From positions 1-31,154 of IMG/VR virus record IMGVR_UViG_3300022074_000225: a stretch of 31,154 nucleotides of DNA; one strand, 5' to 3'. Position numbers and translations under genes: made by a program. Below the pieces are notes generated by a model, which ran no database searches, was not told the DNA's origin, and saw only the letters and a list, made by a program, of their open reading frames with translations. This document shows positions 6,097 to 30,129 of this stretch, one piece after another; the first letter of the stretch is position 1; each line of letters opens with the position of its first letter. The stretch comes from a virus.

Positions 6097-6375
6097 TTAT
6101 TTAGCGATGTAAAGTTTGTTTTTGTTTTTTTTACGTGGTCGTGCACGATTAGTTGATGGACTTTCTAATCCATGCTTTCCGGGACCATGCATGTTATGCG
6201 AGGCATCTTTGCCATCGCCATTGCCATATGTACCCATTTTACGATTTAACGCTACAGCTTCTTTAGCAATCTTATTGCCTTTACCGTTTTTGTTATATCG
6301 TGTTTGTTGTGCAATCCTACGCTTGTTAGCAGCAGGATTAGCATCATAATATCTTTGTGTTTTACCTTTTGCCAT
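6097..6375 (-). CDS. Small basic cyanophage protein (92 aa)
   Basis: It begins MAKGKTQRYYDANPAANKRR and contains 'MGTYGNGDGKDASHNM' in the middle, followed by a Lys/Arg/Asn-rich end. The pattern K-x-x-x-Y-D-x-N near the start and G-T-Y-G-N-G-D-G-K-D-x-S-H is shared, as far as I remember, with small hypothetical proteins of marine cyanophages. No function is known. Its 5' end overlaps the small terminase gene by 14 bases, suggesting coupled translation. A DNA- or RNA-binding structural role would fit the charge but remains inference. Confidence 0.65.
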   Translation of the reverse strand: MAKGKTQRYYDANPAANKRRIAQQTRYNKNGKGNKIAKEAVALNRKMGTYGNGDGKDASHNMHGPGKHGLESPSTNRARPRKKNKNKLYIAK

Positions 6376-27156: not shown

Positions 27157-28173
27157 TTAACTACGTGCTGAAGTTAACTCAATAGCACCTGCTGGGTTAA
27201 GTGTTCCTGCACCCATTGCAAGTCTACCTACCATAACGTCACCTTGGTATAAAACAGAAACGTCTCCAGATGTCACCTGAACCTGAGGTCCAACTGCTTC
27301 TACGATTCCAGCTACGTCACGTTGATATATTAAACCACAGTGTGTAGAGAAATCTCCAGAGTAATCGTTGTTTTCACCAGACTGACCAGTTACTGTACCG
27401 GCAAGGAAAGGTAGGTTGTTTGAACGCTTGATAGAAATACCAGCAATTTCAACTAGACCTTCACCAGATGTTAGGTTACCTTGATTGTTACCATAGTCTC
27501 TGTTTAAGATGTTAGAAGAAACCTGTGATACCAAGGCATAGTATTGTCTTGGATTAAGTATCGCAGTACGTCCAGTCTTTGGGAGATTTTTTTCGTCAAG
27601 AACTGCAGCTGCTTCAAAGAAAGCATCTACTAGAGCTTGAGCATTATACTCCTTAGTTACACCTAGCTCGATCTGTGTACCACCGGGTTCTGGTCCGGGT
27701 GATGCTGTGATAGGATGTGCTTCTCTTGCTGCTTTAGCAATAGTTCTAAACACTTTCTTATCATAAGCTTCAGCCAAAGCATGACCGATCTTAGAAGAGA
27801 TCTCTGAGCGTAGAGAGTAATGTGCAAGTGTTTCATCTAAGTCATATACGAATGCAGAACTAATTAATAGGTCATCGCATTGTATAGTTTTCTCAGCTAC
27901 TGGTGGATCACCACTTCCAAGGATAGGCTCCCCGGGTGTATGATACGCCGCTTGCATGCGTCCTGTGAAGATGAATTGTAAACTCTTACCATTCTTCAAG
28001 GTACGTCTTTGCACGGTGTCACGTGCTATAGTTGCTGACTCATAAGCTTTAAATAGCTCTCCTGAGAACAACTTTAAATAGGTTGCGTATTTGGTATCGT
28101 AAGCCTGAGATCCAGCAGTATTAGATACCGCCTTATTCAAAGCACCAATTACGGATTGTGTAGCGTTAGCCAT
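27157..28173 (-). CDS. Major capsid protein, T7 gp10A-like
   Basis: This 338-residue protein has nearly the length of T7 gp10A (345). 'LKLFSGELFKAYESATIARD' then 'GKSLQFIFTGRMQAAYHTPG' and 'KTIQCDDLLISSAFVYDLDE' match the N-arm and E-loop region of T7-type HK97-fold capsids. 'LNPRQYYALVSQ' and 'VGRLAMGAGTLNPAGAIEL' are near the P-domain and C-terminus. It forms the T=7 head. No frameshifted 10B-type extension is seen: the stop is followed at once by a separate ATG ORF. It is preceded by a 180-base structured leader without a clear ribosome-binding site. Confidence 0.95.
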   Translation of the reverse strand: MANATQSVIGALNKAVSNTAGSQAYDTKYATYLKLFSGELFKAYESATIARDTVQRRTLKNGKSLQFIFTGRMQAAYHTPGEPILGSGDPPVAEKTIQCDDLLISSAFVYDLDETLAHYSLRSEISSKIGHALAEAYDKKVFRTIAKAAREAHPITASPGPEPGGTQIELGVTKEYNAQALVDAFFEAAAVLDEKNLPKTGRTAILNPRQYYALVSQVSSNILNRDYGNNQGNLTSGEGLVEIAGISIKRSNNLPFLAGTVTGQSGENNDYSGDFSTHCGLIYQRDVAGIVEAVGPQVQVTSGDVSVLYQGDVMVGRLAMGAGTLNPAGAIELTSARS

Positions 28174-28346
28174 TTTTTAATAAAAATTAAAGGTATATTT
28201 GCTCGTCTCTTTACGTAAAAAGTTGTGAGTCTCAATTGGACTCATTGATATTTGTGGTCTATCCCACCGTCTAGACGGCTAATTGGTATCCTCGTAAGGG
28301 CAAAAAGCCAACGGTGAAGGAGTCCTACTCTGAGGTGCTCCTCCAC
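28174..28346 (-). promoter_or_regulatory. Structured leader upstream of the capsid gene
   Basis: The minus-strand RNA has a 9-bp stem (28314-28346, one G-U pair, 15-base loop) just after the upstream stop. Then CACCGT (28311-28316) can pair with ACGGTG (28265-28270), or instead the perfect palindrome CCGTCTAGACGG (28267-28278) can form. A third stem is TGAGTC/GACTCA (28226-28244). The first stem may be a terminator or processing site. A 22-codon ORF starts inside (ATG at 28245). No known RNA family is recognised. Confidence 0.45.
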
Positions 28347-28355
28347 TTATACTAT

Positions 28356-28835
28356 TTAGAAGCGATAGTACTGAACGCTTGAGCCTTCTAACACTTTAGC
28401 TGCAGTAGCATCAGAAGTGTTCTGAGCAAACTGGAACTTGATGTCGCCAGCTGTTGCACCATTTTCAATAGTACCTGATAGTTGTAAACAACCGTCAGTA
28501 CCAGATGCTGTGATTGCAATAGCACTACCTTCAGCTGTGATGATAGATGCTAGTGCTCCACCAGCGTGGTCGCAACCATTCTGAGCTACACGGTATGTAG
28601 TTAAACTTGCAGGAGTATCAATAAGATACTTGAAGTCTGGTGTAGCTGCTGTGTTGTAGAAGATGTTGTACTTGAAGTTAATCCTCTCGTACTTACCAAC
28701 TCTAAGATCTAGATCTGATACATCTACAAGTGTAGTAGAACTAGCTACTGATACGTCAGCAGTTACAACCTTAGTGATTGGTTCCTGAGCAGAATAAACT
28801 ACTCCACCGCTTGTAGCGTTTGAATTAAAAGCCAT
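28356..28835 (-). CDS. Beta-rich virion structural protein (159 aa), possible head decoration or fiber
   Basis: The C-terminal half reads 'GCLQLSGTIENGATAGDIKF', then 'QFAQNTSDATAAKVLEGSSV' and 'QYYRF'. The G-x-x-x-x-x-x-Q-x-A-Q-N-x-S-x-x-x-x-x-x-V-L-x-G-S-x-x-x-x-x-x line is one I recall from many marine phage structural proteins. N-terminal residues 33-75 show strands (TTLVDVSDLDLRVGKYERIN). No enzymatic motif is seen. It occupies the slot right before the capsid gene, where T7 has scaffolding gp9, but it is beta-rich and short and does not look like a scaffold. A decoration or head fiber role is the best guess. Confidence 0.65.
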   Translation of the reverse strand: MAFNSNATSGGVVYSAQEPITKVVTADVSVASSTTLVDVSDLDLRVGKYERINFKYNIFYNTAATPDFKYLIDTPASLTTYRVAQNGCDHAGGALASIITAEGSAIAITASGTDGCLQLSGTIENGATAGDIKFQFAQNTSDATAAKVLEGSSVQYYRF

Positions 28836-28922: not shown

Positions 28923-28973
28923 CTACTTGTTTCTAGTGTATTCTATGCCACGATATACGTAAGTAACTGTCAT
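28923..28973 (-). CDS. 16-residue 'downstream peptide' with YRG-Y motif, DUF4278-like
   Basis: The ORF encodes MTVTYVYRGIEYTRNK. The start at 28973 is chosen because GGAG (28980-28983) lies six bases upstream; an in-frame ATG at 28985 is nearer the riboswitch and would remove that spacing. The M-x-x-x-Y-x-Y-R-G-x-x-Y pattern is that of the short DUF4278-type peptides found behind Downstream-peptide/glutamine-II RNAs in marine cyanobacteria. The ORF begins 15 bases after the pseudoknot that is proposed to control it. Cellular role is unknown; homologous systems in cyanobacteria belong to nitrogen control. Confidence 0.75.
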   Translation of the reverse strand: MTVTYVYRGIEYTRNK

Positions 28974-28987
28974 AGCTATCTCCATAT

Positions 28988-29041
28988 ACCAAGACCCCGT
29001 TCCATGCCTTGGTGCTCATGCGTCCCGTGAGGGATGAACGG
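28988..29041 (-). promoter_or_regulatory. Glutamine-II (Downstream-peptide motif) riboswitch candidate
   Basis: On the minus strand CCGTTC (29041-29036) pairs with GAACGG (29002-28997) as P1. TCCC-TCAC-GGGA (29034-29023) forms hairpin P2. ACCAAG (29013-29008), in the joining strand, pairs with CTTGGT (28993-28988) downstream of P1, making an H-type pseudoknot. The segments CGTTCATCCC, GGGACGCATGA and GCATGGAACGGGG follow the Downstream-peptide motif, which binds glutamine. The pseudoknot ends 4 bases before the GGAG of the 16-codon ORF, so glutamine binding would be expected to hide the ribosome site. It is 8 bases after the psbA stop. Confidence 0.8.
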
Positions 29042-29049
29042 ACGTAGTG

Positions 29050-30129
29050 TTAACCTATAGCTGGTGCTGTAAGTGCTACGTTTGTTGACTCAGCTGATGC
29101 TAAGTCTAATGGAAAGTTGTGTGCATTTCTTTCGTGCATTACTTCCATACCTAAGTTCTGTCTGTTAACGACGTCTGCCCAAGTAGGTATAACCTTTCCA
29201 TTAACATCAACCACTGACTGGTTAAAGTTAAATCCATTAAGGTTGAATGCCATTGTGCATACACCCATAGATGTTAGCCATATGCCAACAACCGGGAAAG
29301 CACCAAGAAAGAAATGAAGAGCACGAGAGTTATTGAAAGACGCATATTGAAATATTAGTCTACCGAAGTAGCCGTGAGCTGCAACGATGTTGTAAGTCTC
29401 CTCTTCCTGACCAAACTTATAGCCATAGTTCTGCGATACATCTTCTGTTGTTTCTCTAATAAGTGAGGAAGTAACAAGAGATCCGTGCATAGCAGAGAAA
29501 AGAGATCCACCGAATACCCCAGCAACGCCGAGCATGTGGAACGGATGCATAAGGATATTGTGTTCTGCTTGGAATACGAACATGAAGTTAAAAGTACCAG
29601 AAATACCAAGAGGCATACCATCACTGAAACTCCCTTGTCCGAAAGGGTACACTAAAAATACTGCTAGTGCTGCAGATACTGGTGCGGAATAAGCTACGCA
29701 TATCCATGGTCTCATTCCTAATCTATAACTAAGTTCCCATTGACGTCCCATGTAAGATGCTGCACCGATAAGGAAGTGGAAGACAATGAGTTGATAAGGT
29801 CCGCCGTTGTAGAGCCATTCGTCGAGAGTTCCTGCTTCCCAGATTGGGTAGAAGTGTAAGCCGATGGCGTTGGAGCTGGGGACCACTGCTCCTGAGATGA
29901 TGTTGTTACCATATAAAAAAGATCCTGCTACTGGTTCACGTATGCCGTCAATGTCTACAGGAGGTGCAGCAATGAAAGCTAGTATAAAACAAGTAGTGGC
30001 GGTTAAAAGTGCGGGTATCATTAGTACTCCAAACCATCCTACATATAGGCGGTTCTCTGTACTGGTAACCCATGTACAAAAACTTTCCCAATTATTTCGT
30101 TCTTGTTTTTGAAGAGTAATTGTTGCCAT
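29050..30129 (-). CDS. psbA: Photosystem II D1 protein
   Basis: This is a full-length 359-residue D1. Functional residues sit at canonical numbers: Tyr161 (LVYPFG), D170, E189, H190, H198, H215, H252, S264, H272, H332, E333, H337, D342 and A344, so the Mn cluster, Tyr-Z, chlorophyll, iron and QB ligands are intact. The C-terminal extension after A344 ([15 protein letters not shown]) is kept for CtpA cleavage. Residue 130 is Gln, the form associated with the low-light D1:1 type in Synechococcus. In infection it replaces photodamaged host D1 and sustains energy supply. The start overlaps the hli stop by one base. A glutamine riboswitch candidate follows the stop. Confidence 0.99.

Follow-up and report, generated by a model that had tools for sequence, protein, structure and literature searches.

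A Glutamine-II riboswitch and YRG-Y micropeptide module upstream of the capsid gene in cyanopodoviruses, with a proposed operon-internal translational switch

Marine cyanophages are abundant and their growth is tied to host nitrogen, yet nitrogen sensing by lytic phages is little known. A short minus-strand RNA between psbA and the capsid gene of one such virus (the window, 31,154 nucleotides of DNA, positions 1 to 31,154 of IMG/VR record IMGVR_UViG_3300022074_000225) raises the question of whether a glutamine sensor operates inside a phage late operon and, if so, which gene it serves. An earlier note, made from the sequence alone, had assigned this RNA to the Glutamine-II/Downstream-peptide class, and the covariance-model search it suggested gave a significant match. 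Using cmscan with all families of Rfam 15, we found RF01704 at 28988..29043 (minus strand), matched over its full length (model positions 1-60 of 60) with 53.0 bits compared to a gathering cut-off of 33 (E 2.6e-10). This was the sole Rfam match within the window, in which no tRNA or tmRNA was found either. The aptamer begins 9 nt past the stop codon of psbA (photosystem II D1; 29050..30129, minus strand; Pfam Photo_RC, E 4.6e-87) and, on the same strand, the micropeptide, a 159-aa ORF and, further on, the gene for the major capsid protein follow. The window element is a genuine Glutamine-II riboswitch in the late operon of a Prochlorococcus-type T7-like cyanophage, and by analogy with the other members of RF01704 its aptamer should bind glutamine.

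The sequence elements named in the earlier note are all in place; its helix names, in contrast, were swapped. The crystal structure of the class (PMC6698751) assigns CGTTC/GAACG to the pseudoknot, the short hairpin to P1 and ACCAAG/CTTGGT to P2; accordingly, the helix described as P1 (CCGTTC/GAACGG) is the pseudoknot, the hairpin TCCC/GGGA is P1 and the presumed pseudoknot is P2. On the minus strand of the window, the pseudoknot CCGUUC/GAACGG joins 29041-29036 with 29002-28997, and the P1 hairpin UCCC-UCAC...GGGA joins 29034-29031 with 29026-29023. The P2 helix ACCAAGG/UCUUGGU (28988..29013) pairs 29013-29008 with 28993-28988 in its core, adds a G29007-U28994 pair and encloses the 3' strand of the pseudoknot. 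Among 62 viral elements, all four pairs of P1 and all seven pairs of P2 showed double-sided changes, with 95.6% and 93.5% of cells being paired, respectively, and the combined P1 and P2 covariation score was 0.42, whereas shuffled partners gave 0.14 and slid partners no more than 0.10. The letters of the pseudoknot were fixed by the search pattern in this set (5 of 6 pairs), which is therefore uninformative on that helix. The copy of phage SS120-1, found by the Rfam model rather than by the pattern, carries a compensatory change to CGUUU/AAACG. The comparison across cyanopodoviruses proposed earlier thus yielded covariation at every P2 pair and one compensatory change for the CCGTTC/GAACGG helix. 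Across large divergence, the aptamer core is intact in nearly all phages besides S-SBP1, where the aptamer has decayed (19.6 bits, 5' half missing) and the peptide is retained.

How widespread is this arrangement? Whole-record searches found RF01704 above cut-off in 19 of 24 cyanopodovirus records, of which seven named ones had been picked by DNA resemblance to the element and 17 by psbA or capsid similarity; among the 17 not selected for the element, 12 were positive, five of these from one genus. The carriers include P-SSP7, P-SSP2, P-SSP3, P-GSP1 and NATL1A-7, whereas whole-record searches of DSL-LC07, S-CBP2, S-B28 and Syn5 gave no RF01704 match and no YRG peptide was present near their capsid genes. 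We further assembled 138 viral loci, comprising stretches from an IMG/VR pattern scan (at least 120 matching), named phages and the window itself. Nearly all of them lie on the stretch leading from psbA, hli or scaffold to capsid, and every neighbour that was identified shares the strand of the element. Upstream these neighbours are psbA, hli, scaffold or gp222-like genes; downstream they are capsid, gp222-like or 159-aa ORFs. Locus L049 differs in its setting, which is GC-rich. When the linker letters were varied in two scans, 79 more structured elements were found, 73 of them with a YRG ORF and many in podoviruses without psbA at that place, and the riboswitch is likewise present in SS120-1, S-TIP28 and MedDCM-S28-C3, whose annotations show no psbA between scaffold and capsid. 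The module is thus common to most cyanopodoviruses surveyed and not peculiar to the window phage. The placement between psbA and capsid genes that had caught attention at the outset is correct as a position in the window, but the arrangement is not confined to this virus. Because the element persists in phages lacking psbA, the module is tied to the capsid side, and psbA was rejected as a gene that the element would regulate or stabilise. The upstream stop codon lies at most 25 nt before the element in 80 of 121 loci, a short gap that would suit a switch inside an operon better than a classical 5' leader. A host origin of the module is plausible. In a pattern scan of genome contigs, matches outside cyanobacteria were largely due to chance; a Dehalococcoidia-binned contig of 6.6 kb (PBPE01000100.1), which carries a phage-type riboswitch and the peptide MTVTYVYRGVKYTRKK, is probably a misbinned cyanophage fragment.

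The reading frame behind the aptamer, a YRG-Y micropeptide of 16 codons (MTVTYVYRGIEYTRNK; 28973-28923, minus strand), is preceded by the Shine-Dalgarno motif GGAG at 28983-28980, and an in-frame ATG at 28985, upstream of the annotated start, would allow a 20-aa form. That this frame is real, as had been proposed, is evident from its homologues: a YRGxxY ORF of 13-60 aa follows the aptamer in each of the 132 loci whose downstream DNA is long enough. In P-SSP7, whose peptide is MKVTFVYRGVAYTRVIG, and in loci L063 and L098, the first ATG is out of frame. In 115 distinct ORFs, encoding 102 distinct peptides of 13-60 aa, the residues Y, R, G and Y are invariant (YRGIEY in the window), and pN/pS over the motif is 0.076, with variation falling at third positions; the motif was required when choosing these ORFs, a step that cost no locus. 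The micropeptide ORF is therefore a real coding gene under strong purifying selection. Against DUF4278 (PF14105; Pfam gathering cut-off 25.3 bits), the 20-aa form of the window peptide gave no match and longer viral peptides reached 17.7-22.9 bits, whereas host peptides of 33 and 57 aa scored above the cut-off with 33.1 and 42.9 bits. Given its sub-threshold standing, we term the window peptide DUF4278-like only. In Prochlorococcus hosts, the peptides of such elements have one to three copies of the motif, among them the 33-aa yfr6-type peptide. According to a review (PMC6316151), DUF4278 corresponds to the N-terminal portion of IF17, the glutamine synthetase inactivating factor; this portion stabilises the factor and is not needed for inhibition. 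By analogy, the phage peptide may act on host nitrogen metabolism.

The second candidate target, the major capsid protein gene (27157..28173, minus strand; Pfam Gp10A-like, E 5e-84; PHROG 267, major head protein), encodes a protein 95% identical to the capsid protein of Prochlorococcus phage NATL1A-7 and has a conserved structured leader RNA of its own, separate from the riboswitch (28243..28347, minus strand; 101 bits with our model R1). In an alignment of 54 sequences, two tested helices of this leader gave a covariation score of 0.43 compared to 0.16 for shuffled controls, and RNAalifold recovered the structure in part only. The model matches 17 of 20 records, one copy each and upstream of the capsid gene, among them DSL-LC07 and S-B28, in which the riboswitch is absent. 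The leader stays next to the capsid gene even where further ORFs separate it from the riboswitch. In the window, a 159-aa ORF (28356..28835, minus strand) lies between micropeptide and leader; this ORF has homologues at the same place in a few relatives (L060, L061 and L103), no Pfam match and no significant PHROG. Searched against Rfam, the leader had no match up to E 5, making this RNA of about 100 nt a candidate new family. In NATL1A-7 (L126, 3745-3815), an annotated tRNA-Gly replaces the first hairpin of the leader, and in many phages the loop of this hairpin resembles a tRNA T-loop, hinting that the first part of the leader may be tRNA-derived or a processing site. Another locus (L003) contains a group I intron (6132-6345; 83 bits) 3' of the riboswitch, apparently inside the capsid gene. 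As the capsid gene possesses its own conserved leader RNA, the riboswitch should serve the peptide, and direct control of the capsid by the riboswitch is unlikely. The earlier suggestion that glutamine could influence either the peptide or the structural genes is thus likelier for its first part, peptide translation being favoured by the sequences, than for its second.

Our probable reading of the locus is an operon-internal, glutamine-ON translational switch for the DUF4278-like micropeptide and not for the capsid. When glutamine is scarce, the 3' strand of P2 together with the Shine-Dalgarno region would fold onto codons 2-9 of the peptide, forming a hairpin P3 (28947..28995, minus strand) that would hide the ribosome site. 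When glutamine is present, the pseudoknot and P2 would form and remove the base of P3, exposing GGAG such that the micropeptide could be translated. In the window, the minimum free energy fold contains P3 with GGAG paired (-15.7 kcal/mol), and withholding the P2 3' strand leaves GGAG open in the best fold. The start codon is paired in that same fold and may also stay paired in the aptamer-folded state, which would count against the ON model. The predicted unpaired probability of the window Shine-Dalgarno motif was 0.08, compared to 0.76 in synonymous recodings and 0.35 with the P2 3' strand withheld. The respective means over 40 relatives that share the window/P-SSP7 type were 0.24, 0.54 and 0.42. 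The effect was weaker in other peptide types and small in a second, independent set (0.48 vs 0.55 recoded), and ordinary window genes, of which only eight were usable, went in the opposite direction (0.58 vs 0.50). Pairing runs between linker and codons averaged 5.8 within the same genome, compared to 4.55 over 1000 partner shuffles (maximum 4.99; kinship ignored). This register-tolerant shuffle replaced a fixed-register P3 count based on greedy detection of the P2 end, which was blurred by register slips. By fold energy, P3 was unremarkable relative to dinucleotide shuffles (z -1.26), and the folding-energy z against synonymous shuffles is a weak measure, as ordinary window genes also give -1.2. 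Taken together, the predicted folds support a lock of the Shine-Dalgarno motif by the coding sequence for the window type, but not as a general feature. The ON direction is drawn by analogy from published host switches, and the conflict between P2 and P3 in the window is consistent with it. An OFF state in which the 5' strand of the pseudoknot pairs with the Shine-Dalgarno motif was rejected, its predicted probability being near zero. No terminator-like site was found in or just after the aptamer on the same strand; transcription attenuation was therefore rejected, and translation is the likely level of control.

Three other explanations need to be weighed against a peptide switch. The switch could act mainly on expression of the capsid gene and the structural genes after it, whether through translational coupling, polarity or transcript stability, with the peptide as a mere leader. 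A long-standing linkage to the capsid is indeed apparent, as most cyanopodoviruses, psbA-less ones included, carry the element on the capsid side. However, a median of 160 nt separates the peptide stop from the next ORF, gp222-like or 159-aa ORFs can intervene, the capsid leader RNA also occurs in phages without the riboswitch, a terminator-like site near the aptamer is absent and the peptide residues themselves are conserved, so that we judge capsid control to be improbable.

Still less likely is a role as a 3' element that protects or ends the upstream psbA message, or as a free, yfr6-like small RNA, with glutamine sensing being secondary. The close spacing to the upstream stop codon would fit a 3' element, and MED4 yfr6, which contains the motif, accumulates as a 244-nt RNA (PMC1242208), but the element also follows hli, scaffold or gp222-like genes where psbA is elsewhere or absent, and the downstream ORF is always retained under purifying selection. 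The least probable alternative, to which we give very little weight, is that the aptamer is a non-switching remnant of the host locus, selection acting on the peptide alone. The decayed aptamer of S-SBP1 beside its retained peptide is what such a remnant would look like; the core, however, is intact in nearly all other phages despite their divergence, and compensatory changes have accumulated in P1, P2 and, in SS120-1, the pseudoknot.

Returning to the peptide switch, a wider picture can be sketched only tentatively: cyanopodoviruses may share a virus-specific nitrogen gauge, in which a glutamine-gated micropeptide is made within the late operon as capsid synthesis begins and tunes either the glutamine synthetase of the host or a different target of DUF4278 proteins, the window type being locked by its own codons and a second structured RNA residing at the capsid gene. 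The virus may thereby read the nitrogen state of its host while making particles. Being syntenic in most surveyed cyanopodoviruses, including the model phage P-SSP7, the sensor-peptide pair offers a directly testable route to phage nitrogen sensing. Moreover, the phage forms of 13-17 aa are the shortest natural members of a cyanobacterial nitrogen-linked peptide family and provide a handle on the role of that family.

One cyanophage copy was reportedly noted in the original description of the motif. The class, its pairing with a YRG peptide in hosts, the nitrogen link and some phage copies have been published (PMC1242208, PMC2518516, PMC2864571, PMC6316151, PMC9004378, PMC9602691, PMC9964418). 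In a search that covered mainly openly available papers, we found no description of a conserved cyanopodovirus module preceding the capsid gene, of a lock formed by the peptide codons or of the capsid leader RNA; the syntenic viral module and the window-type expression platform appear to be new. Other marine phages also carry glutamine riboswitches, namely T4-like cyanophages, Melnitz, Mosig and AG-345-P14, which belong to other phage groups than the window; the Melnitz element is glnA-like (type 1) and linked to tmRNA, and in the passages covered a capsid-upstream module with a YRG peptide is not described for any of these elements (PMC9602691, PMC9964418, PMC9004378). The gifB/IF17 system of Synechocystis, with its type 1 glutamine riboswitch, likewise places a small protein under glutamine-ON control, a direction that for the phage would hold by analogy; its aptamer is of another class (glnA type), and IF17 is far larger and has a glutamine synthetase-inhibiting part that the phage peptide lacks. 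The closest relatives are the Glutamine-II elements of marine picocyanobacteria, known together with the YRG-Y peptide from a nitrogen-control setting, as the earlier note had stated (PMC2864571, PMC6316151). According to the latter, a review, picocyanobacterial riboswitches of the type 2 glutamine class occur with DUF4278 genes and switch expression on, a Prochlorococcus copy being activated by glutamine. Expression of host copies drops on nitrogen depletion (PMC1242208). The elements of Prochlorococcus and Synechococcus, including MED4 yfr6, share with the window the aptamer, as judged by the covariance model, with pseudoknot, P1 and P2, and a short YRGxxY ORF closely downstream. In contrast to these host elements, the window copy lies inside the late operon of a lytic phage, directly after another gene's stop codon; its peptide has one motif, as in many phages with 13-17 aa, compared to two or three motifs and 33-57 aa in the hosts seen; and its Shine-Dalgarno motif is predicted to pair with the peptide's own codons.
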